Under the pieces are notes generated by a model, which did no database searches, had not been told where the DNA came from, and worked only from the letters and a program-made list of their open reading frames with translations. A stretch of 64,000 bases of DNA from NCBI RefSeq assembly GCF_001618885.1, contig NZ_CP015114.1, positions 1,736,001 through 1,800,000 on the forward strand, written 5' to 3'. Made by a program: the position numbers and the translations under genes. Shown here piece after piece: positions 4,270 to 18,458 of the stretch (position 1 is its first letter; each line of letters begins with the position of its first letter). The stretch is from Staphylococcus condimenti (lineage in GTDB: Bacteria > Bacillota > Bacilli > Staphylococcales > Staphylococcaceae).

Positions 4270-4571
4270 ACTGATCATCTCCTTAGATAGTATTAGGATT
4301 TTTTACACATGAAAAATATGTGGAAATAGTTCATTTTAAAATTCGACTTCTTAAGAATACATAAAGGTCTATTCATTATTTGTTGTCATATATATTGTCT
4401 CAGTAATAATTTTATCTAATGTTATGTGAGATTGAGGATCGTGTTAAGTTAACTTATAAACATCAACTCTCTTATATGAATATCATATATATAACCATAG
4501 ACATATTTTGACTAGGCAAAATGATATGTTGAAAATAGCAAATTACACGCTTTCATTCGGAGGGGAAAATT
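4270..4571. other. intergenic region upstream of the GTPase gene
   Basis: About 300 AT-rich bases without an ORF. It must hold the divergent promoters of the 52-aa gene and the GTPase gene. The only clear structure is the shared palindrome at 4497-4515. Confidence 0.5.
4497..4515 (+). promoter_or_regulatory. WYL-box copy 1 (putative operator)
   Basis: ATAGACA-TATTT-TGACTAG, an imperfect inverted repeat fitting ATAGWCA-N5-TGWCTAT. It lies about 57 bases upstream of the GTPase start codon. Three related copies occur at 6067, 7141 and 7460, around the WYL regulator and its downstream module. Confidence 0.6.
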
Positions 4572-5537
4572 ATGGACTATTATAGAGAAAAGTATGTTGA
4601 AGATAGAAGTAAAATAATGGATGTTACTGAGATTTTATTAGAGTATGTTAAACAAAATGAAACAAACTTTAAACTGCTAAAAAACATCTCTGAAATTGAA
4701 AGAATACGAGAAAGCTTTTTAAGAAAAAAATTTGAAATTGTGATAACGGGGGACAGCAAAGTTGGGAAATCTACCTTTATTAATAAACTAGTAAATAAAA
4801 ATGTACTGCCAACAAGTCCAACAAAAGTAATAACTTACATCAAGCACTCTGATTATACACATAGTATTGAAGGTACGAAGATTCATCTGAAAAATGGTGA
4901 AATCATTACCATAGATAATGAAAAACTAGTCGAATTAAGTGAAAGTGATATAAGCGAAATAGAATACTTGGAAGTTTTTCTGGATTCAAATTTTTTGAAA
5001 GAAGGTGTCGCAATTATAGATACACCTAGTATTACGACACTCAGTAAGGTACAAGAAGATAATATTGATACTCAAATTAAAGAAGCTTCTGCTCATATTT
5101 TTTTATGTAGTGCAGACCAAGGTGGATGTACAGCAGAAGTAAATTTTATTCAAGATAAAGAACAATATATAAACAAAACATTATTTGCAGTAAATAAAAT
5201 GGATCTTATCCATCCTGAAGAAGAGGGAGAAATTATTGATGCTATGATAATGAATTTTGACCTTAAAACTACTGAACATCTATTTTTAATGAGCATACAT
5301 AATGATGAGAATCCTATGATAGCAATTAAGAAGCAGTTGGAACAGGTGATATTCGGGGACGACAAATTAAAAAAAGAAATTGCCGAAGCATATAAGACAA
5401 TAAGTCGTCATTATGCTTTGCTAATAAAAGAAAATTTATTGAAAACGAAAGAAGAATTAGAAAATGATGCATTCTTTAAGAAGATAGATGATGATATGAA
5501 TGCTCTATTTAAAAAAATGAGAAATAATTTGAAGTAA
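4572..5537 (+). CDS. dynamin-like / TRAFAC GTPase
   Basis: A 321-aa GTP-binding protein. The P-loop GDSKVGKST is at residues 60-68, a G3-like DTPS at 150-153 (Ser where Gly is usual) and the guanine-specificity motif NKMD at 208-211. A helical N-terminus (1-50) precedes the G domain, and the C-terminal 60 residues are charged and helical. It is shorter than full dynamin-like proteins, with no obvious membrane paddle, so it may be a G domain acting with a partner. GGAGGGG precedes the ATG. A WYL-box copy upstream ties it to the WYL regulator and to the membrane/nuclease module. A defence role is inference. Confidence 0.75.
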   Translation: MDYYREKYVEDRSKIMDVTEILLEYVKQNETNFKLLKNISEIERIRESFLRKKFEIVITGDSKVGKSTFINKLVNKNVLPTSPTKVITYIKHSDYTHSIEGTKIHLKNGEIITIDNEKLVELSESDISEIEYLEVFLDSNFLKEGVAIIDTPSITTLSKVQEDNIDTQIKEASAHIFLCSADQGGCTAEVNFIQDKEQYINKTLFAVNKMDLIHPEEEGEIIDAMIMNFDLKTTEHLFLMSIHNDENPMIAIKKQLEQVIFGDDKLKKEIAEAYKTISRHYALLIKENLLKTKEELENDAFFKKIDDDMNALFKKMRNNLK

Positions 5538-5551
5538 ATAGAATATACACC

Positions 5552-5588
5552 AAACAAAGCAAACCATCCCAAGGCTTGCTTTGTTTAG
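5552..5588. terminator. bidirectional terminator between GTPase and DUF4870 genes
   Basis: AAACAAAGCAA and TTGCTTTGTTT form an 11-bp stem between convergent genes. Confidence 0.8.
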
Positions 5589-5594
5589 GTTCTG

Positions 5595-5960
5595 CTATTT
5601 AATGATTGAAAGTGAGAATGGTACTACATAATCTTCGCCTTTGTTAACGGCAATAATAGCCATGATTGTATAAACAATACTTGCAATCGAGATAGCAATT
5701 AATGGAATGATACCTATAATAATAAGCGTTAAAATGTATGAAACTACTCCGTAAATTGCATAACTAATAGCATAATTTAAATAGTTTTTACCTTGTTGGT
5801 TGATAAAAGGAGATTCATCTTTTTTCATTAACCAAATAATTAAAGGACCTATAAAACTTGTGAATAAACTTAAAATCCACATTACCATTGCCATTGTGCG
5901 ATCATCTTTTGGTACTTCTTGAAATCTTTGAGGATTTTCAGAACCGTTTTGAAAATTCAT
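5595..5960 (-). CDS. DUF4870 domain membrane protein
   Basis: A 121-aa protein with a hydrophilic N-terminus (about 25 aa) and three hydrophobic segments, including 'FINQQGKNYLNYAIS', the typical DUF4870 (Tic20-like) signature. Function unknown. The ATG at 5960 is chosen over 5969 because GAAGGG lies directly against the upstream ATG but about 9 bases before the second. It is divergent from the WYL regulator, with a WYL-box between them, so it could be part of the same regulon. Confidence 0.8.
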   Translation of the reverse strand: MNFQNGSENPQRFQEVPKDDRTMAMVMWILSLFTSFIGPLIIWLMKKDESPFINQQGKNYLNYAISYAIYGVVSYILTLIIIGIIPLIAISIASIVYTIMAIIAVNKGEDYVVPFSLSIIK

Positions 5961-6066
5961 TTCCCTCATCCCTTCTTTATTGTATTTTTTGCTTTTAGCA
6001 AAAATAAGTATAAGTACACTACAAAATACTTAATGCAATACTCTCATACATTTATTGTATATGTAT

Positions 6067-6087
6067 AGATAGTCAATTTTTGTCTAT
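6067..6087 (-). promoter_or_regulatory. WYL-box copy 2 (putative operator)
   Basis: On the minus strand this 21-bp site agrees with copy 4 (7460-7480) at 19 of 21 positions: ATAGACA, a 5-base centre, then TGACTATCT. It sits between the divergent DUF4870 and WYL genes, about 95 bases before the WYL start. Confidence 0.65.
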
Positions 6088-6182
6088 ATTGTGTAGTTTA
6101 TTTGTATTTACAAAAACTTAAAAATAAAATCATTAAATTTAATGATATAATTTGTTGAAATAGAGGGAATGGTGGTGTCAAA

Positions 6183-7139
6183 ATGGCGAAATCTATACAA
6201 TTACTTGAATTATATTTACGTTTTTTAGACGGCGAAAAACTTACAAAATCTACAATAAGTCAATATTTTGATAATAAGTCAGATAGAACAATCCAAAGGT
6301 ATATTTCTGAGCTCAATAAATTTATTAGTAGCTATGAGGCAACTGAACATTTATATATCAAATATGATTATAAAATTAATGCCTTTAAGATGTTTAATAA
6401 TGGCAATCAAAACATTAATCAAAAACAAGTACTAGCCATTATCAAAATGTTGATGGCAGCAAGAGGGCTTACTAAAGAAGAAATAGATAAAACAGTTGCA
6501 CATTTAACAGAACGTCTCAAACCAGAGGACCGTAATATTATTGAGCAAGCAATCCTTTCTGAAATGACACACTATCACCCCATGATTCATGAGGAACCGC
6601 TTTTAGACAAAATATGGGATATCAATCTCATTATTCAAAATGGTCAATCACTATCATTTGAATATTCGAATGCGATGAATAAAGTTAAGCATCATGTAAT
6701 CAAGCCAATGTATATTACGTTTTCAGAACTTTATTTTTACGTTGTAGGTGTGAATGAGAAAGAACAAGTTATTATTTATCGTTTAGATCGGATTCTTGAA
6801 TATGAAGGTATTAAAAAAAGAATTGCCACTCCAGATTCACCTTACTTTAAAGAAGGAGAGCTGAAACAACGTATTTATTTCATGTATGGAGGGGAATGGC
6901 AGCGCGTAAGATTTGAATTCAATAATGGAATTATAGAATCAGTCATGGATCGCTTTCCAACTGCAAAATTACTTAAAAAAGACTATGAAAATAATCGCTT
7001 TGAAGTTGAAATTGAAGTTATAGGTAACGGCATTATAATGTGGCTGCTTTCTCAAGGAAGTAAAGTGAAGGTATTGTCTCCACAATCAGTAAAAGAATTA
7101 TATTTAGAAGAGTTGAAAAAGATGATAAATCAATATTGA
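6183..7139 (+). CDS. WYL-domain helix-turn-helix regulator
   Basis: A 318-aa YafY/WYL-type transcription regulator. The N-terminal winged helix (about 1-70) contains 'TISQYFDNKSDRTIQRYISEL'. The middle and C-terminal regions carry the WYL domain (about 145-230, with 'IKPMYITFSELYFYVVGV' and 'IIYRLDRI') and a WCX-like C-terminal domain (about 235-318). WYL regulators of this layout (BrxR and CapW families) often repress phage-defence operons and sense a small ligand. Here four copies of an inverted repeat surround the gene and its neighbours, suggesting autoregulation and control of the GTPase and the HNH module. The ligand is unknown. Confidence 0.85.
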   Translation: MAKSIQLLELYLRFLDGEKLTKSTISQYFDNKSDRTIQRYISELNKFISSYEATEHLYIKYDYKINAFKMFNNGNQNINQKQVLAIIKMLMAARGLTKEEIDKTVAHLTERLKPEDRNIIEQAILSEMTHYHPMIHEEPLLDKIWDINLIIQNGQSLSFEYSNAMNKVKHHVIKPMYITFSELYFYVVGVNEKEQVIIYRLDRILEYEGIKKRIATPDSPYFKEGELKQRIYFMYGGEWQRVRFEFNNGIIESVMDRFPTAKLLKKDYENNRFEVEIEVIGNGIIMWLLSQGSKVKVLSPQSVKELYLEELKKMINQY

Positions 7140-7140
7140 G

Positions 7141-7159
7141 GTAGACAAAATTTGTCTGG
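7141..7159 (+). promoter_or_regulatory. WYL-box copy 3 (putative operator)
   Basis: GTAGACA-AAATT-TGTCTGG contains a perfect 7+7 palindrome (AGACAAA/TTTGTCT around one base). It begins 2 bases after the WYL stop codon and ends just before the ribosome binding site of the small gene at 7170. Confidence 0.6.
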
Positions 7160-7169
7160 GGGCATATGT

Positions 7170-7361
7170 ATGATACAAGTAATCCAAGATGAAAGGATGA
7201 TATGCATGTTCAAGTTAACCGACAGACAAAAGAGAAAACTAATCGACATGATATTTGTAATAGAATATGACGAAAATCAAGATGAAGAAGAGTTCTATCG
7301 TGAATTAGAAAGTGAACTACGTGAAATTTTCGAAAAAATAAAGCGATTTTTTTGGGTTTAA
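7170..7361 (+). CDS. small acidic helical protein (63 aa)
   Basis: Starts at ATG 7170 after GGGGG at good spacing. An alternative ATG at 7206 has its own AAAGG. The core 'FKLTDRQKRKLIDMIFVIEY' is followed by a strongly acidic, predicted helical stretch (DENQDEEEFYRELESE) and ends FFWV. No family recognised. The position directly behind the WYL gene, with an operator copy in the gap, suggests it belongs to the same regulon. A small antitoxin-like or adaptor role is possible but unproven. Confidence 0.6.
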   Translation: MIQVIQDERMICMFKLTDRQKRKLIDMIFVIEYDENQDEEEFYRELESELREIFEKIKRFFWV

Positions 7362-7459
7362 AATGTAGTTATATTAGCTTCTGTATCTTGGAAGTTAATA
7401 TATTTATATCTTCATTAAGGTGTGGCAAGGCTCAAAAAATAAATTTTTAAATTATTAGG

Positions 7460-7480
7460 ATAGACAAATAATGACTATCT
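7460..7480 (+). promoter_or_regulatory. WYL-box copy 4 (putative operator)
   Basis: ATAGACA, a 5-base centre, then TGACTATCT; near-palindromic arms GATAG/CTATC. It lies about 120 bases upstream of the two-gene module, ahead of a TATAAA-type -10 region near 7575. Confidence 0.65.
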
Positions 7481-7601
7481 TAAATTCAGTAAGATATATA
7501 GTAAAATACATGTAAGAAATTGATTTAAAAACATGCACATTAAGTAGTTTTATTTTAAAAACAATAAACAAATTATATAAAATATATGCGAGGTTAGGGA
7601 A

Positions 7602-8477
7602 ATGTTTAATAAAGAGAATAGAAAACAAGCATTAAGAAATTATGAAATAAATGCCGAAGAATATGAAAAAGAAAGAGGCTTATTAGTAACTGATTCAGAA
7701 GAATTATATGCAACTAGATTAATTTTGAAAGAACATGTAAAAAAGATTTGGGAATTTTTAAATAATATGAGAAATAAACCTGAAGAAGTACAAGTGAAGG
7801 TAGAAAAATTAAGAATTGAATTTGCAAAATTTGAGAACTTTGTAAAAGAAGTTAATGCTGAAGTAGAATCCACTTTAAAGAAATCAGCAGGGAGCATAGG
7901 AACTGGAATTGCTGCTGGAGCTGGAGTAGCTGCTTTTGGACCTGCTGCAGCAATGGCAATCGCAACAACCTTTGGAACAGCTTCTACAGGAACAGCAATT
8001 TCAGCATTAAGTGGAGCAGCCGCGACTAATGCAGCATTAGCTTGGCTTGGAGGCGGAGCGCTAGTTGCAGGTGGAGGCGGAACAGCTGCAGGAACAACCC
8101 TTTTAGCGCTTAGTGGCCCTATAGGATGGACGATTGGCGGAATTTCACTTGTTGGGGCTGGTATATTTACTAATTCTAAAAATAAGAAAATGGCTAATGA
8201 AGCACGCGAAAAAGCATTAGAGATAAAAAAACAAGCAGTAATATTAAAAGGTACTAGAGAAGAAATTAAAGAAACAACATCTTTAACTCAAAATACTAAT
8301 GACTTAATAGAACCTTATTTCACAAGTGTGTTTGATCGAGCATCAAAATACAAAATGGATTATAACTTAATTAAACAAGCTAATGATAATGAATTAGTTA
8401 ATGACTTAGGCAGCCTAATCAATCAAGCAAAAGGAGCAACGGAATTATTAAATAGAGCAATAGGTCAGGAGGCATAA
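7602..8477 (+). CDS. Ala/Gly-rich predicted membrane protein, partner of HNH protein
   Basis: A 291-aa protein of unknown function. It has a charged, helical N-terminus (about 1-95, coiled-coil-like). A long Ala/Gly/Thr-rich hydrophobic core follows (about 97-190, with 'GIAAGAGVAAFGPAAAMAIA' and GGGALVAGGGGTAAG), then a charged helical C-terminus (195-291). The hairpin of hydrophobic helices between two coiled coils resembles the general plan of alpha-pore-forming or membrane-remodelling proteins; this is shape only, not homology. Its stop is 3 bases before the next ATG, and the downstream ribosome binding site lies within its last codons, so the two genes are translationally coupled. A WYL-box is upstream. 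Confidence 0.7.
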   Translation: MFNKENRKQALRNYEINAEEYEKERGLLVTDSEELYATRLILKEHVKKIWEFLNNMRNKPEEVQVKVEKLRIEFAKFENFVKEVNAEVESTLKKSAGSIGTGIAAGAGVAAFGPAAAMAIATTFGTASTGTAISALSGAAATNAALAWLGGGALVAGGGGTAAGTTLLALSGPIGWTIGGISLVGAGIFTNSKNKKMANEAREKALEIKKQAVILKGTREEIKETTSLTQNTNDLIEPYFTSVFDRASKYKMDYNLIKQANDNELVNDLGSLINQAKGATELLNRAIGQEA

Positions 8478-8480
8478 CTT

Positions 8481-10271
8481 ATGGAAAATACCGTAAGTTT
8501 TGATAGATTTGTTGATTTAAACTATCTTAAAGGCACTGAGATTTTTAAAAGTGAAGAAGAAAAAATAAAAGAAGTGTCTAACAAATTGTTAGATGAATAT
8601 AAGGAAATAGTTTTAACTCAAATTATTAATCAATTTGGAATTGGACAACTAATTGGCGGCTATAAAGACGGTGGAAACGTTTCTACAGAGTATAATGCGA
8701 AAAAAGGTATATTCGCAGATGAAGAAACGAAAGCAAGATATACAAGAGAATATAAGCATAGTGATTATAGTAATGATATATTTTCGATTGATAAAAGTGG
8801 TCAAAGAATTTTAGAGACTCCGGGATTATCAACACTAAATTATCAGGCGACAAAAGTGAGAGAAGATATAAGAAATAAAATAACCCCAGTAAAAAATACT
8901 CCAGAATATATTAGATTAAAAAATACAAATCCTGGAGTAGGGGAAAAAAGCAAGAGAATGGTTAAAGCTTCTAATAATGCTAGAAAAAAAATTGATAAAT
9001 TTAAAAAAAATAATTTGAATAAAGAAGGCTATTTAACTGATGGGTATAATACTAATAGGACAGCAGAGAACCATTCAAATTTTCATATGGACCACGTTAC
9101 TTCAGCTAAAGAAATACATGAAAAATTTAAACTTTATACTTCTAAAGAAGAAGCAGCGAAAATAGCATTAGATCCAAATAATATTACTCCAACAGATGGT
9201 TCAGCAAATCAATCTAAAGGCAAAAATAATTTATTAGAGTGGAACGAAAGTAAAAGTAAAAGGGACCCCGAAAAAACTAACGGTGAATTATATGAATTAG
9301 ATAATGAAAAAGTATCTGAAAGGTATAAAACTTCAACAGAATTCATAGAAAAGGAATATAAAAAAAAGAAATATAAACATATAAAAAAAGGTGTAGTTAA
9401 TGCAGGATTAAAACAGGGGAGTAACTTTGCACTCAAACAAGCATTAGGAATTTTTTTATACGAGCTAGGTAATGAATTTTCAAAAGAAATGAAGAATTAT
9501 TTAGGCAACCTTAAAAGTATGAAAAATTTTAAAGAAAAAACTGAAGAGTTTAAAAAAAGTTGTGAAATTATTAAGGATAATCTATTAGAGAAGAAATGGA
9601 AGATTCTTAAAGGTTTCCCAGAAGGGTTTATCAGTGGTTTTATTAGTAATATAATAACATTCATAATTAATTCATTCCTAACTACTTATAAGAGAATGGT
9701 GAAGATAATTTCTGAATCTTTCTCAGGGCTCGTTTCTGCCGTTAAGACTTTATTTTCTAATGATTTTGAGGATTCTAATCAAAAATATAAAGCCGCGATA
9801 AAAGCTTTTACTGGAGTAATAATAGGCTCTCTTGGAGGTATAATGACTGAAAGTTTGATTTTATATTTGAGAACTACTCCTTTTGGTCTATTTGCAATTC
9901 CTGTAGGAAGTATCATTGGAGGTATTTTAACAGGAATTGTAACTGTATCTGCTCTTTATATGATTGATGATTTTTCTGGTTTTATTAAATCATTAAAAGG
10001 TATTTTCAAAAAAGATGAAATATCTCAAGAGGAATTGAATCAAAAATATAAAGAATTAGTAATAAAAATGGATGAAGAATACCAGTTTATTATTAGACGT
10101 ATTTATAGAGAATATAAACACTTGTTAGAAATAACGCAAAAAGCTTTTGATAGAACTATTTCTTCCACACAACGTTTTAATAACACAGTGGAATATGCTG
10201 TGGCTTTTAAAGTGGATGAAAGTGAAATAGTAAAAAACACACAAGAAATAGATGATTTTTTCTTAAATTAA
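8481..10271 (+). CDS. HNH-like nuclease with C-terminal membrane segments
   Basis: A 596-aa protein. An HNH-like motif is visible: HMDHV at residues 202-206, then 'NNITPTDGSANQSKGKNN' at 233-250. The order DH...N...N..KG is as in HNH endonucleases. Residues about 270-390 are Lys-rich and helical. Hydrophobic segments occur at about 380-405, 445-470 and 474-497, and the last 90 residues are coiled-coil-like. A nuclease domain joined to membrane segments, with a glycine-rich membrane partner and a WYL regulator, suggests an abortive or toxin-like effector. No metal-site test can be done here, so activity is inferred. Low GC and Lys/Asn-rich codon use point to acquired DNA. Confidence 0.7.
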   Translation: MENTVSFDRFVDLNYLKGTEIFKSEEEKIKEVSNKLLDEYKEIVLTQIINQFGIGQLIGGYKDGGNVSTEYNAKKGIFADEETKARYTREYKHSDYSNDIFSIDKSGQRILETPGLSTLNYQATKVREDIRNKITPVKNTPEYIRLKNTNPGVGEKSKRMVKASNNARKKIDKFKKNNLNKEGYLTDGYNTNRTAENHSNFHMDHVTSAKEIHEKFKLYTSKEEAAKIALDPNNITPTDGSANQSKGKNNLLEWNESKSKRDPEKTNGELYELDNEKVSERYKTSTEFIEKEYKKKKYKHIKKGVVNAGLKQGSNFALKQALGIFLYELGNEFSKEMKNYLGNLKSMKNFKEKTEEFKKSCEIIKDNLLEKKWKILKGFPEGFISGFISNIITFIINSFLTTYKRMVKIISESFSGLVSAVKTLFSNDFEDSNQKYKAAIKAFTGVIIGSLGGIMTESLILYLRTTPFGLFAIPVGSIIGGILTGIVTVSALYMIDDFSGFIKSLKGIFKKDEISQEELNQKYKELVIKMDEEYQFIIRRIYREYKHLLEITQKAFDRTISSTQRFNNTVEYAVAFKVDESEIVKNTQEIDDFFLN

Positions 10272-10279
10272 TATATCTA

Positions 10280-10315
10280 AACATCGACTCCCCCGAGGAT
10301 TCGATGTTTTTTCTT
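10280..10315 (+). terminator. terminator of the membrane/HNH module
   Basis: AACATCGA...TCGATGTT stem followed by TTTTC and TTTTTT. Confidence 0.85.
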
Positions 10316-12446: not shown

Positions 12447-12542
12447 ATGACAACATTTGAAGTAATTATAGTCATGATAGCGTTTGGTGAATTTACACTG
12501 AGCCTTATCACTATAATTATTGAAATTGTTAAAAAAAGATAA
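12447..12542 (+). CDS. SprG-like type I toxin (31-aa holin-like peptide)
   Basis: Encodes MTTFEVIIVMIAFGEFTLSL, ends IVKKR, 31 aa in all. One hydrophobic helix with a Phe-Gly in the middle and a basic tail are the hallmarks of the SprG / 'putative holin-like toxin' family. Translation probably depends on the ribosome binding site of the leader ORF, by re-initiation at the adjoining TAA-ATG. The stop overlaps the end of the antisense RNA hairpin on the other strand. The peptide would insert in the membrane and depolarise or kill when its antisense RNA is lost (family knowledge). Confidence 0.75.
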   Translation: MTTFEVIIVMIAFGEFTLSLITIIIEIVKKR

Positions 12543-12680
12543 AAAATAAACCATCTCACAACTTTGACGTAGTTGAGATGGTTTAAATCATCAAAATCAT
12601 GTCACCGTCTTTTAAACGGTCTCTGAAAGCGTCGTGTTGGAGCACGGTGCCTTTCTTTACGCCTTTATTATCGCATAAGA
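12540..12680 (-). ncRNA. SprF-like antisense antitoxin RNA
   Basis: A minus-strand promoter with GATAAT in TGCGATAATAAA is near 12665-12675. The transcript runs left through GCGTAAAGAAA and a GGAGCACG/CGTGTT region. It ends at a strong hairpin (AACCATCTCA/TGAGATGGTT, 12549-12585) followed by ATTTTTT on the minus strand. The hairpin lies at the 3' end of the toxin gene, giving a tail-to-tail overlap as in SprG/SprF pairs. Ends are approximate. Confidence 0.6.
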
Positions 12681-12749
12681 GAAAGTAAAAGTACACACAA
12701 ATACATAAAGAGAAGCCTTTTAGAAGAAAATTGACGCTGAGTTCAGAAA

Positions 12750-12892
12750 ACAAAAAATAAACCATCTCACAACTTTGATGTGACTGAGATGGATTATTTA
12801 AACAATCTTAGCATGTCACCGTCTTTTAAACGGTCTCTGAAAGTGTCGTGTTGGAGCACGACGCTTTTCTTTACGCTTTTATTATCGCACAA
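12750..12892 (-). ncRNA. second, orphan SprF-like RNA copy
   Basis: About 140 bases closely repeat the first antitoxin gene, including the same GATAAT promoter element (TGCGATAATAAAAGCG) and the terminator hairpin with T-run. No intact holin-like toxin is found next to it. Just before it, 'CTGAGTTCAGAAAACAAAAAA' followed by TAA could encode a remnant C-terminus (LSSENKK). Confidence 0.55.
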
Positions 12893-13078
12893 GATAAATT
12901 GAAAATACATAGAGAAAATTCTATTTTAAAGGACAGACTTATAGCGTTATTGAGTTCATTATGAGAAAAGAAATTATGTATCTATTAGGACTATAATATA
13001 GTTGCTTTTCATTAGAAAGAGTTTGACCAGTTATTATTTTCACAATCTTGTGACAATTAAAAGTTTATGATTAAATAA

Positions 13079-14728: not shown

Positions 14729-15433
14729 CTAATTAATATTAATAATACTTGCATCATTGTTAGCAAACTTATTCAACGCATCACAATAAGTCATAATAGT
14801 AGTAGCATCCATACAAGTCCGCGTCTTATTTTGAGTAATTTTATGATATAAAGTTTGTTTGAATTCTGATTTAGAAGAAGGTGTAGCAATATATTTATTC
14901 GGATTACCTACATAAAGATTGCCATCACCTTTATGGTTGAAGTAAATAACCATCTCGATGAACCTTGCATCAAATATTTGATTTGCAAATTCACGTGTCT
15001 TTTGAATTTGAGCGAAAGGATGCCCATATTTTTTAAAAGCAAATTGTTTATTTTCATTGCTGAGAATAAAGGTGATGTAATCATCGCTATGTTCTGGAAA
15101 TAAATACTTTTTTAAACCATCTAAATTAAATTTTTCCAAGTTATCTTTACTAAAATTGAAATAAATATCACCTTTCCAGTGTTTTGTTTCAATGATAAAG
15201 AGGCCGTTTGTACAAATTACAAAATGATCAATTTGTCTGATTTGATTTTCATCTTCAATTAACACGTTGTTATAAATTGCATAGTGATCGACAACTTTGC
15301 TTTTTTTAAACTCTAAAAAGATTTCTTGCAAATGATTGCTGGTGATTTGTTCTCCCACATTTAACGAAGACTGCACTAAATCTTGTAAATACTTAATTTT
15401 GTTGTTTAACTTTTCAGCATTAAAATTTTCCAT
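14729..15433 (-). CDS. NERD-domain nuclease-related protein
   Basis: A 234-aa protein with a nuclease-related (NERD) domain at about residues 35-130. 'QIDHFVICTNGLFIIETKHW' supplies the Asp and the Glu-x-Lys expected of this PD-(D/E)XK-like fold. The C-terminal third is unassigned. It is divergent from the helicase, with 145 bases between starts. NERD domains are often fused to or encoded beside UvrD-type helicases, so the two probably act together on DNA. Weak AT-rich codon use matches the neighbouring DarT cassette. Confidence 0.85.
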   Translation of the reverse strand: MENFNAEKLNNKIKYLQDLVQSSLNVGEQITSNHLQEIFLEFKKSKVVDHYAIYNNVLIEDENQIRQIDHFVICTNGLFIIETKHWKGDIYFNFSKDNLEKFNLDGLKKYLFPEHSDDYITFILSNENKQFAFKKYGHPFAQIQKTREFANQIFDARFIEMVIYFNHKGDGNLYVGNPNKYIATPSSKSEFKQTLYHKITQNKTRTCMDATTIMTYCDALNKFANNDASIININ

Positions 15434-15578
15434 GAAATTCTCCTTATTAAGTTTAATAATTATTTATGAATATATATGTAAAAATAAAGTCTGAATTTAA
15501 TGTTATACTAGGTATTGCATACAATTATTTTCAAAATTATAAATAGTTAATATTTATTATGAAGGGGAGAAATATGAT

Positions 15579-17111
15579 ATGTCAATACCAACTCTTGTGG
15601 GTCATCAAACTGAGATTTTATATGTAGCTGATAATCAAAACATGGTTATCACTGGTAGTGCAGGATGTGGGAAATCATTATTAGCTATCTACAGAATATA
15701 TTGGCTCTCTAAGGTGTACCCTAATGATAGAATTGTTTTGCTTACATTTAATAAAGCGGTAAATCAAGATATGATTTCCAAAATAGAGCTTATTGCTGCA
15801 CAACGAAATGAAACAGTACCTAATAATTTGATTGTTAATACATATAATTTATTCATGAAAGAAATTTTAAATAAAATTTGTGATAATTTTCAGGAAGAAG
15901 AGTTATTACTTAATAAATATAAAGAAGGAAAGGGAGTTAAAAATTATAATCATTATAAGAAGAAAGTTAGACAGGTTGAACAAGCTGTAGACGAGATTAG
16001 TAAAAAGTATCCAGATGAATCTTCGTTTAAAAGACCTTATCAAACCTTTTCTGACGAAATATCGTGGCTGCAACAAATGGCAGTTAGTACTCTAGAAGAC
16101 TATGAAAAGATGGAGAGAATAGGAAGAAGAAGCACTAGAATAGATAGAAGTAAAAGAAAATATTTTTATGAAGTTTATGAAAAGTATTTAGAAAATAGAG
16201 AAGAAGACGATAGATATTATGACTTTGAGGATATCGGGAGTTTAATACGAACTTTATTAGAAAAAATTGAAGATCAAGATAAAAGAGAAAAGTTGATGTC
16301 TTTTAAATATATTCTTATCGATGAATTTCAAGATTTCACATCAGATATGTTAATGACTGTAAATGCTTTAAGTGATAAAAATGGCGCATTAGTGTTGTTA
16401 GGAGATATCAATCAGGGTGTATTCGGAAAGCGTATTTCTTTCAAATCGCTAGGTATTAATATGAATAGTTATAAGAAGTATAAATTGATTCAAAATTATA
16501 GAAATAGCCGTCCAATCAGTGAGTTAGCTGAAGAGATATCTAATTCACCATATTTTGACAAGAGTAATGAATTTTATGCAGAAGCTGAATTAGGAATCAG
16601 AAAAGGACAAGACCCAAAAATTATCCAATACAAAAATGAAGAAGAAGAGATGTCCAAAGTTTATCAATATATTAAAGCTGTGGAGACAAACTATAAAGAC
16701 GAAAGTGTATGTGTCATACTTCCAACGCATAAGTTTAAAGACTTTAAAGGTTTTATTGAAAAGCATGGTAATAATTTTAAAGAATATAGTTTAACTAATC
16801 ACGAAAGTAATATTGTCATTGGATCTTATAGACAAATTAAAGGGTTGGAATTTGATACGGTTATTATGCCTTTTTTAAGTAAAAAGACTTTTTTGGAAAG
16901 TTTAACGATTGACAATAATGAGCTTGATACGGATAAAGAAGATTTTGATCTTACTAATATAGGCACAGAAATACTAGAGAAATACATTGCGCAGTATTAT
17001 GTTGGTGTTACAAGAGCAAGAAATAAACTTATTATTTTATACTCAGGACAAATAACGCCATTATTAGACAACTCATCTTTTGAGAAATATAAAAAAGGGA
17101 GTGAAAATTAA
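15579..17111 (+). CDS. UvrD/Rep-like superfamily 1 helicase
   Basis: A 510-aa ATP-dependent helicase. Walker A is TGSAGCGKS near residues 26-34, Walker B is LIDEFQDF near 245-252, and motif VI is 'YVGVTRARNKLIILYSG' near 478-494. At 510 aa it is smaller than UvrD (about 720), lacking parts of the 1B/2B insertions, as in NERD-associated helicases. GAAGGGGAG precedes the ATG. Its TAA overlaps the ATG of darT1 by one base, so the genes form an operon. It probably unwinds or tracks along DNA as sensor or processor in the cassette (inference). Confidence 0.85.
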   Translation: MSIPTLVGHQTEILYVADNQNMVITGSAGCGKSLLAIYRIYWLSKVYPNDRIVLLTFNKAVNQDMISKIELIAAQRNETVPNNLIVNTYNLFMKEILNKICDNFQEEELLLNKYKEGKGVKNYNHYKKKVRQVEQAVDEISKKYPDESSFKRPYQTFSDEISWLQQMAVSTLEDYEKMERIGRRSTRIDRSKRKYFYEVYEKYLENREEDDRYYDFEDIGSLIRTLLEKIEDQDKREKLMSFKYILIDEFQDFTSDMLMTVNALSDKNGALVLLGDINQGVFGKRISFKSLGINMNSYKKYKLIQNYRNSRPISELAEEISNSPYFDKSNEFYAEAELGIRKGQDPKIIQYKNEEEEMSKVYQYIKAVETNYKDESVCVILPTHKFKDFKGFIEKHGNNFKEYSLTNHESNIVIGSYRQIKGLEFDTVIMPFLSKKTFLESLTIDNNELDTDKEDFDLTNIGTEILEKYIAQYYVGVTRARNKLIILYSGQITPLLDNSSFEKYKKGSEN

Positions 17112-17812
17112 TGGTTCAAGCAGTTGTGAAAAACCGTCATATTACTAGATTGTGCCATTTTACTAAATCCAAAAACCTGCCTTTTATTTTAGGTGAAGGG
17201 ATAGATAGTGATAATGGTATTTTAGCGAATAATTTTATTTCTGATACTTCATTTTTGAATAAAACTGATGAGAATAGATTTGATAATCACGAAGATTTTA
17301 TTTGTACATCGATTCAATATCCTAATTGCTATTATTTTTCTACTGTAGTTAAAAAGAATCAAACTGAAATATTTAATGAATGGACGATACTGGGAATCAG
17401 TCCTAAAATTATTGATGATTCTACAAAATTCTGTGCTGTAAATGCAGCTACTAAGGGTGGAAGAATGATTGGAAATGGTGCTGAAGCTTTTGAAGAAGTT
17501 TTTAGTGAAAGAGTAGAAGGAAAAAGAACTTTTATTAGGAATCAGAACTACCCAGACAATGTTCCTACTAACGTGCAAGCGGAGGTATTGATTTATAACA
17601 AAATACCTAAAGAAAATATTACAAGCCTTATTTTCCCCACAGAAGCAATTGCTGAAAAAGAATGTTTAAGATTGGAACTTTGTGGAGTTAATGTTTCCCA
17701 ATATGACATAATAGTATCAAGTGACTTGTTTGAAAAGAAAGAAATAGTACGATTATTACAATCAGGAAAAATACCTGAAGAAAAGGTGTTGAAATATAAA
17801 CAATATGGCTAA
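17111..17812 (+). CDS. darT1: DarT1-type DNA ADP-ribosyltransferase toxin (DUF4433)
   Basis: A 233-aa protein with the DarT layout. 'ITRLCHFTKSKNLPFILGEG' binds NAD+ near the N-terminus. 'SIQYPNCYYFS' follows in the middle, then 'FCAVNAATKGG'. 'QAEVLIY' supplies the catalytic Glu at residue 158. DarT enzymes attach ADP-ribose to single-stranded DNA bases: DarT2 to thymidine with a DarG macrodomain antitoxin, DarT1 to guanosine with a NADAR antitoxin. The NADAR gene next door argues for the DarT1 type. It overlaps the helicase by 1 base and the antitoxin by 8. Confidence 0.85.
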   Translation: MVQAVVKNRHITRLCHFTKSKNLPFILGEGIDSDNGILANNFISDTSFLNKTDENRFDNHEDFICTSIQYPNCYYFSTVVKKNQTEIFNEWTILGISPKIIDDSTKFCAVNAATKGGRMIGNGAEAFEEVFSERVEGKRTFIRNQNYPDNVPTNVQAEVLIYNKIPKENITSLIFPTEAIAEKECLRLELCGVNVSQYDIIVSSDLFEKKEIVRLLQSGKIPEEKVLKYKQYG

Positions 17813-18458
17813 TCGATTCGTTTATTATGTTGATCCAACAGACCATTTTAATTTTAAAAAAGCAGATGTTTCTTTTAAGTGGTTTCCTGGCTTTTCAAAA
17901 GAGCAAAAACAGAAAAGTATAAAAGAATTACATCAGCAATTTTTAAATCTAAATATTACAGATAAACTTCTTGAAGTATCGAGTAAATCGGAAAAAAGTA
18001 TAGGAGTTAAAGCGAGTGCTTTTAATTTAAAAATAAGTACAATTAAAGGGCATAATATTAGCGTTGAACAGATATTCCAATCTAGTAAAGTTTATAAAAA
18101 AGCGGGGAACCAAAATTATCTTTTAGAAGAGGGATATAATTCTAAAGAAATGAAACGAAAGTTAAGAGAAATTGATAAAGATGATTATATGATTAAATAT
18201 AGTAGTTTTCATCATGACTTCCCGTTAGAGCCTAAAACGCTCTTTTATAATTGGATATATATCAATGCTTTAAATCAAAATGAAGAAGTAGCAAAAGAAA
18301 TTTTAAAGTACGAGGCGTTTACAGATATAGAATTCAATCCAAAGCGCTCTTTTAATTGTCAGGCTGAAGCGTGTGCTATCTACGTTTCTTTAGTAAAACA
18401 AAAAAATTTAGAAGAAGCTTTGAAGAACATTAAAACCTTTGAAAGTATTGTATATTAA
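17805..18458 (+). CDS. DarT1-associated NADAR-type antitoxin
   Basis: A 217-aa protein that begins inside darT1 (8-base overlap). Characteristic stretches include 'FKWFPGFSKEQKQKSIKELH' (25-45), 'SAFNLKIS', 'SVEQIFQSSKVYKKAG', 'PLEPKTLFYNWIYINALNQN' and 'FTDIEFNPKRSFNCQAEACA'. I recognise these from the DarT1-associated NADAR antitoxin family. NADAR proteins remove ADP-ribose from guanine bases, so it should neutralise DarT1. The overlapping starts give tight translational coupling of toxin and antitoxin. Confidence 0.8.
   Translation: MANRFVYYVDPTDHFNFKKADVSFKWFPGFSKEQKQKSIKELHQQFLNLNITDKLLEVSSKSEKSIGVKASAFNLKISTIKGHNISVEQIFQSSKVYKKAGNQNYLLEEGYNSKEMKRKLREIDKDDYMIKYSSFHHDFPLEPKTLFYNWIYINALNQNEEVAKEILKYEAFTDIEFNPKRSFNCQAEACAIYVSLVKQKNLEEALKNIKTFESIVY

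Follow-up and report, generated by a model that had tools for sequence, protein, structure and literature searches.

Introduction

Two kinds of WYL regulator come closest to the locus discussed here, which lies in Staphylococcus condimenti and combines a WYL regulator gene, four copies of a palindrome and a probable slot for defence genes. The defence-linked regulators BrxR and CapW are described as repressors whose promoter sites are palindromes or inverted repeats 19-27 bp long (PMC9122601, PMC9122588). According to the BrxR survey, 97% of the family is proteobacterial and six members were found in 607 Firmicutes genomes (PMC9122601). DriD of Caulobacter is described as an activator bound to single-stranded DNA (ssDNA); its site overlaps the -35 element at a fixed distance from the -10 element, and one site in the shared upstream region serves an operon divergent to its own gene (PMC12340889).

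The analysed stretch (64 kb, called the window) lies on a single Staphylococcus chromosome of 2.66 Mb. We consider it rather probable that the locus is a regulated defence slot, with operators bound by the WYL protein, swapped modules, an activator as the likely regulator, and membrane/nuclease genes as its present cargo. That the defence genes can be exchanged and the switch cannot is a more interesting fact than the regulon itself.

A fixed frame with differing cargo

The window was compared with three sister species (G014, G004 and G016) and with the more distant S. croceilyticus and S. pragensis. The gene order GTPase, DUF4870, WYL and small gene is common to the window and the three sisters, and these four species carry a near-identical site-4 promoter in front of three different types of cargo. 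The slot contains a PDC-M09A and a PDC-M40B gene in the window. In G014 and G004 it contains BnzA (1.7e-134) and BnzB (3.7e-162) of the Bunzi system. In G016 it holds one PDC-S30 gene (7.2e-96) with an EcsC match just below the Pfam cut-off. Homology between the window and all three sisters stops at 7507-7515, just after the promoter, and resumes at 10269-10272, before a terminator and a BCCT transporter gene. The features, in window coordinates, are as follows, with mismatches of sites 1-4 counted against ATAGWCA-N5-TGWCTAT.

4497..4515, plus strand: site 1, palindrome before the GTPase gene, one mismatch, TATGTT 10 nt downstream
4572..5537, plus strand: dynamin-like GTPase, 321 amino acids (aa), fixed part (PF00350, 1.5e-14)
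5595..5969, minus strand: DUF4870 membrane protein, fixed, divergent from WYL (PF09685, 3.3e-31)
6054..6059, minus strand: -10 hexamer TACAAT of the DUF4870 gene, exactly 10 nt from site 2
6069..6087, no strand assigned: site 2, perfect palindrome in the DUF4870-WYL intergenic region, no mismatches
6183..7139, plus strand: WYL-WCX regulator, 318 aa (PF13280, 3.4e-6; PF25583, 4.7e-8)
7141..7159, plus strand: site 3, directly after the WYL stop codon, three mismatches, TATGAT at 7169-7174, 10 nt downstream
7206..7361, plus strand: small acidic protein, fixed, 51-aa frame after GAAAGG; alternative 63-aa frame from 7170
7460..7480, plus strand: site 4, cargo-promoter palindrome at the left edge of the slot; 7460-7478 has no mismatches
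7481..7515, plus strand: conserved cargo promoter block, including TATAGTAAAAT and the inverted repeat ATCTTA-N7-TAAGAT from 7477
7602..8477, plus strand: cargo gene 1, PDC-M09A family (PDLC04407, 2.6e-90)
8481..10271, plus strand: cargo gene 2, PDC-M40B family, HNH-like domain and helical C-terminal half
10279..10315, plus strand: Rho-independent terminator at the right edge of the slot, sequence common to the four species; the window copy is folded (z -4.3)

The original prediction had placed the GTPase, the WYL regulator, the small protein and the membrane/HNH pair in one regulon. A shared operator-like motif does link these genes. The first three are fixed in four species; the pair is interchangeable cargo that is replaced by Bunzi or by an EcsC-type gene in the sisters.

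In the mechanism that we propose, the fixed WYL-family factor would bind TAGACA-N5-TGTCTA before the DUF4870 gene, the small gene, the slot and, more weakly, the GTPase gene. Defence modules would be swapped in a space bounded to the left by the operator-promoter and to the right by the terminator, probably via homologous recombination in the fixed flanks, and newly arrived modules would come under WYL control at once.

The inverted repeat at 7477-7495 overlaps the end of site 4 and is the same in the four species apart from one loop base.

The palindrome and its conservation

A motif search places the four palindromes where they had been seen by eye (4497, 6067, 7141 and 7460), and the claimed agreement of sites 2 and 4 at 19 of 21 bases in opposite orientation holds (arms 6067-6087 and 7460-7480, 90% complementary). 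The motif had not been noticed by eye elsewhere in the window. In its loose form it is no commoner than chance: up to three mismatches give 18 matches in the window, with 16.6 expected by chance, and up to two mismatches give 45 in the whole genome, with 54 for the reversed control, so that such counts, having no excess, mean nothing. The strict motif is rare. A genome-wide count gave two perfect matches, both in this locus and 1.4 kb apart, and four matches with one mismatch, site 1 among them. Another of the one-mismatch matches, at 1455253 and 133 bp before a short WYL-like gene, was rejected as a further operator of this type; it does not fit the -10 geometry described below.

A matrix trained only on more distant relatives (seven sites, taken from S. 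croceilyticus, S. pragensis and relatives at the level of the order, with the spacer masked) ranks sites 1-4 as first to fourth in the window. Sites 1, 2 and 4 score 15.7 each, and the fifth-ranked position, 35926, is close behind at 14.6. None of 60 first-order Markov simulations equalled the score at rank 1 or matched the number of sites at the scores of ranks 2, 3 and 4; the highest single simulated site scored 16.7.

The degree of conservation varies among the sites. Site 2 has no mismatches in all four species, and its inner core persists in S. croceilyticus and S. pragensis. Site 4 has none in three species and one in G014. Both are kept despite a synonymous divergence (dS) of about 1.4-1.6 in the WYL gene between the more distant pairs. 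Site 3 has three mismatches in the window and G014, two in G016 and more than three in G004, where the core is kept in weaker form; the left arm is kept in all. Its position behind WYL is the same in S. croceilyticus, in S. pragensis and in two relatives at the level of the order. In the first two of these the DUF4870-WYL pair (the former as homologous DNA adjoining WYL) and site 3 persist at 56-59% WYL identity, and the S. pragensis WYL gene carries an internal stop. In all three sisters the palindrome again accompanies the fixed genes, which supports the original prediction. Recombination can also preserve fixed sequence, and this weighs against reading the operator conservation as purely the work of selection.

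Site 1 is only partly conserved, which makes the GTPase the weakest member of the proposed regulon. The sisters keep the right half but vary in the left half or the spacer, and TAAATT or TAAGTT stands at the -10 place. A search over 17 positions with two mismatches found the site in G016 and G004 and missed it in G014, which has one extra base in the spacer. The GTPase gene is also a mosaic relative to the nearest sister, G014, with a dS of 0.83 in the first half and 0.10 in the second half. In G004 (L042:6478-7446) the GTPase P-loop reads GESGVGKYT, with Y where S or T is expected, and this copy may be inactive.

The start of the small gene at 7206 appears likelier than that at 7170, because the 63-aa frame overlaps the -10 box of site 3.

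Promoter geometry and the sign of regulation

The WYL profile A6 matches 44 of 398 sampled Bacilli genomes (the source genome included) at 1e-20, and 80 homologues of the window WYL protein were found. The WYL and WCX domains of the latter pass the Pfam cut-offs. The N-terminal HTH_11 match (0.012) is below its cut-off, and a helix-turn-helix is probable there. Intergenic DNA at 31 WYL loci (all except L112, which has no WYL gene) was searched for GWCA-Nk-TGWC. For k from 2 to 10 the counts are 0, 0, 0, 15, 4, 1, 0, 2 and 0. A narrower set of 26 loci, which also omits L100, L105, L109 and L110 (taken as near duplicates on the basis of gene lengths or protein start) and L111 (a second WYL locus of one genome, on a 5-kb contig), gives 0, 0, 0, 13, 3, 1, 0, 1 and 0. 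Several loci are related, so these sets are not fully independent. The motif is tied to this WYL clade and is found beside WYL homologues across Bacilli as well as in the sisters.

In 19 of the 27 site-orientations a -10-like hexamer starts exactly 10 nt downstream of the palindrome core, against 4 at the second-best offset; in 1000 simulations the best offset averaged 4.9 with a maximum of 8. The 27 entries comprise 15 sites, those added by hand from L047, L048, L045 (one mismatch) and S. pragensis (L053), and five from the window, with the minus direction used only for sites that face DUF4870. A narrower count, which leaves out the L061 and L103 sites, gives 16 of 23. No -35 element is visible at the clade sites, where the best matches reach 3/6. 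From the operator end to the next start codon there are mostly 37-125 bp, with extremes of 11 and about 293.

Site 2 had been assigned to the WYL promoter. It does lie before WYL, but the divergent DUF4870 gene fits the -10 geometry better and is probably the target; its -10 hexamer is TACAAT in three of the four species and TACGAT in one.

We favour activation over repression, by roughly two to one, because of the 10-nt geometry without a -35 element, the likeness to DriD, and the fit of site 2 to DUF4870 over WYL. The WYL protein would most likely be an activator that responds to infection or DNA damage and replaces the -35 element, as DriD does. The repressor role expected from BrxR and CapW is doubtful, since many promoters of the clade look activator-dependent.

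The strongest alternative, which we regard as unlikely, is a BrxR/CapW-like repressor: a WYL dimer on the promoters would keep RNA polymerase out and would leave only when released by a phage-derived ligand. Among WYL regulators linked to defence, those studied best do repress from promoter palindromes (PMC9122601, PMC9122588), and the operator here overlaps the -35 region. Several observations count against activation. Seven of the 19 fitting promoters have an extended -10, which is workable without a -35 and would also suit a repressor. In the window only three of the five site-orientations fit the 10-nt rule. Site 4, which as the cargo operator matters most to the cargo, is the main misfit: the position reads AGTAAG, the nearest -10-like hexamer is TAAGAT at 12 nt, inside the second inverted repeat, and others lie at 19 and 24 nt. 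Site 2 toward WYL has only TTTATT at the -10 place. However, a strict 10-nt spacing without a -35 element is expected for activation and is not needed for repression, and the profile matches chains of the DriD type at about 1e-7 but those of BrxR and CapW no better than E 0.011-0.91.

Cargo genes and the neighbours of related regulators

The combination of GTPase, coiled-coil/hydrophobic protein and membrane HNH nuclease had not been matched to a named defence system. The pair does match the named PADLOC candidate families PDC-M09A and PDC-M40B, which come from different candidate systems. In the M09A protein, which has thousands of relatives, two long coils flank a middle rich in Gly and Ala; its AF2 (AlphaFold 2) model is poor, with low confidence in 91-189, and it matches the LeoBC profile at 8.2e-8. 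Cargo gene 2 matches M40B at 1.8e-54 (best stretch 159-594) and M09B only over residues 503-596 (3.5e-17), so the long match is to M40B. An M40A partner was not matched among the ten proteins tested; the neighbour is M09A. The model of cargo gene 2 has a confident N-terminal part with an invariant H-N-N set, followed by the long helical half, which is probably membrane-associated. H205, N234 and N243 are invariant in 38 sequences and may represent the HNH triad. The N-terminal part overlays weakly on beta-beta-alpha nucleases, the VIA matches are weak, and Foldseek returned no match with E <= 0.001 for this protein. The M09A and M40B products probably form a membrane/nuclease effector that would act late or kill the infected cell.

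The pair is rare in relatives. Among 120 genomes (the source genome included) one other has a weak M40B match, with stops, and there is no second M09A; in a phylum sample M40B occurs in two of 398 genomes, again counting its own. M09A and the GTPase gave no match in plasmids, and BLASTP of the Bunzi proteins against M09A or M40B gave none at 1e-4. A Clostridioides difficile plasmid carries a related pair (M40B 2e-70, M09A-like 8e-32) behind a WYL homologue of 36% identity; there the order is reversed and a single gene separates the two. The M40B relative in G134 (L112) has no WYL gene within the 13 kb examined. Two database proteins, a relative of M40B and one of WYL, both have a longest contig of 14,882 and may lie together.

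The genes beside WYL homologues elsewhere were also scanned, leaving aside L045, L100, L105 and L108-L111. Three Leo-like genes adjoin WYL at L094 and L095, genes like HEC-06, Orf5 and SspE at L099, an IetA-like ATPase with PDC-S02 at L098 and L102, a DolB/PDC-M37B-like gene at L047, and EcsC at L046. Lactococcus and Lachnospira plasmids carry Bunzi-like and dynamin genes beside WYL homologues. At L101 UzuA comes second behind a broken WYL, and a DpdF-like gene follows WYL by some 6 kb at L093. Not all loci support a link to defence: PADLOC gave no match for the genes tested beside WYL at L106, L107, L097 and L044 and weak matches only at L096 and L104, and L103 has a reverse transcriptase that may not serve defence. 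With one protein as query, no WYL homologue was confirmed in viral contigs.

The cargo could serve another membrane or nuclease role, for example in interbacterial killing or in plasmid exclusion, in place of an antiphage one. The PDC families are only candidates. The same slot holds Bunzi in sisters, however, and genes like those of Leo, Bunzi and DolB occur at homologous WYL loci; we find this alternative improbable.

The lactococcal plasmid pNP40 (L057, NC_010901), which has a reputation for phage resistance, carries a BnzB-like gene and a gene for 486 aa together with a WYL homologue.

Probable movement of cargo

The two Bunzi copies are closer to each other than their surroundings are. 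Between G014 and G004 the dS is 0.33 for BnzA and 0.24 for BnzB, and 1.41 for the adjoining WYL genes. Identity per 150 bp is 0.75-0.93 to the left of site 4 and 0.82-0.97 between that site and the terminator, where 21 of the 22 bins reach 0.87 or more and the low one is at the gene junction; it is 0.79 just beyond the slot and 0.78-0.87 in the transporter. The left flank is uneven, climbing to 0.91-0.93 over the WYL end and the small gene and dropping to 0.79 in the bin that precedes site 4. The stretch of high identity starts at the operator. We read the low cargo dS and this profile as horizontal movement of the Bunzi cassette. No integrase or recombinase gene and no border repeats were noticed at the slot, where no systematic search was made, so recombination in the fixed flanks is suggested as the route on that footing.

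It is also conceivable, and in our estimate quite improbable, that cargo was never exchanged and that genes were independently inserted and lost at a hotspot beside the terminator, with common edges of no regulatory meaning. The lack of noticed recombinase genes or border repeats would suit this, and four species are few. It would leave unexplained why one operator and promoter precedes three cargo types, why homology to three sisters ends just after that promoter, and why the high Bunzi identity begins at the operator.

Two neighbouring regions are recorded here. Diverged repeats of about 158 bp lie at 12541-12909, downstream of the BCCT gene, and are present in the three sister species. At 14729-18458, 4 kb beyond the slot, a NERD-domain gene (PF08378, 2.4e-13), a UvrD/GajB-like helicase, a DarT-like gene (PF14487, 8.2e-17) and a further open reading frame may form a second defence cluster.

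The likely reader of the palindrome

The WYL protein is the likely reader of the palindrome, and the regulon is real to the extent that sequence can tell. The combined pattern of operator-N10-TATAAT with one mismatch occurs 38 times in 29 of the 398 Bacilli genomes (17 for the reversed control), and 15 times in 30 same-genus genomes including the source (none for the control). This pattern alone is not specific, because only five of 30 loci have a WYL-type gene within about 1.5 kb; the comparison set, other motif loci of this genome, has one in seven. A promoter scan found consensus promoters no more numerous than in shuffles. The five WYL-type genes in 30 loci would suit an unrelated regulator with WYL as a mere neighbour, but that idea is very unlikely, since the spacing-5 palindrome is enriched at WYL homologues from several families with different neighbours and a diverged WYL-like paralogue of this genome has its own TGGACA-N5-TGTCCA-N10-TATATT promoter.

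This paralogue (G000:C1:1680439-1681308; L049:8440-9309) matches the profile at E 6e-19 and has no Pfam WYL match. A second TGGACA-N5-TGTCCA-type site with the same geometry precedes a TM2 membrane gene behind it. The TM2 gene has parallels in DUF4870 at the present locus and, on Lactococcus plasmids, in the zinc-ribbon genes that diverge from WYL.

Significance and comparison with known systems

The locus suggests a plug-in site that brings new defences under ready-made control, and it bears on how newly acquired, potentially toxic defence genes receive safe regulation. It also provides a testable DNA signature (palindrome, 10 nt, -10, no -35) for a WYL regulon of Bacilli, where few members turned up in the BrxR survey. 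The locus could be used as a trap, as anything between promoter and terminator in a new strain would be a defence candidate under known control. The open-licence literature searched yielded no description of the slot architecture or of the probable activator sign, and nothing relevant on an interchangeable defence slot. It did not join WYL with Bunzi, or combine three of WYL, dynamin, phage defense and glycine zipper, and of PDC-M09, M40 and S30 only PDC-S30 was found.

Among known systems the locus belongs to WYL-controlled defence, a known kind, as a separate lineage. It resembles BrxR and CapW in having WYL and WCX domains behind a probable DNA-binding N-terminus and in being linked to varied defence genes, and BrxR in its palindromic site with a 5-bp spacer. 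It is distant from both in sequence (for BrxR, 7qfz at E 0.011 and 7t8k at E 0.56 from profile A6) and differs in having many promoters that look activator-dependent. DriD (7tzv) is among the closest solved WYL-WCX chains to the window regulator; the fixed distance from site to -10 with a poor -35 and the better fit of site 2 to the divergent gene are further likenesses. Unlike DriD, which serves the DNA-damage response, the regulator proposed here would serve a defence slot, and the DNA-binding half of DriD is unmatched by sequence.

The cargo can be compared in the same way. Bunzi occupies the slot in G014 and G004 and is absent from the window, where the pair combines the A gene of PDC-M09 with the B gene of PDC-M40. 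The window GTPase, at 321 aa, matches LeoBC only at 0.041, which sets it apart from the Leo dynamin system.

More tentatively, the locus might be an immunity expression slot, in which a chromosomal operator-promoter-terminator frame owned by a WYL activator captures whole defence modules under one infection-triggered switch; the WYL clade, with its single conserved operator and fixed spacing to a promoter that lacks a -35, would then be the Bacillota counterpart of BrxR with the opposite sign. A slot of this kind would, like an integron, supply the promoter for captured modules, and as read here it would do so free of an integrase.

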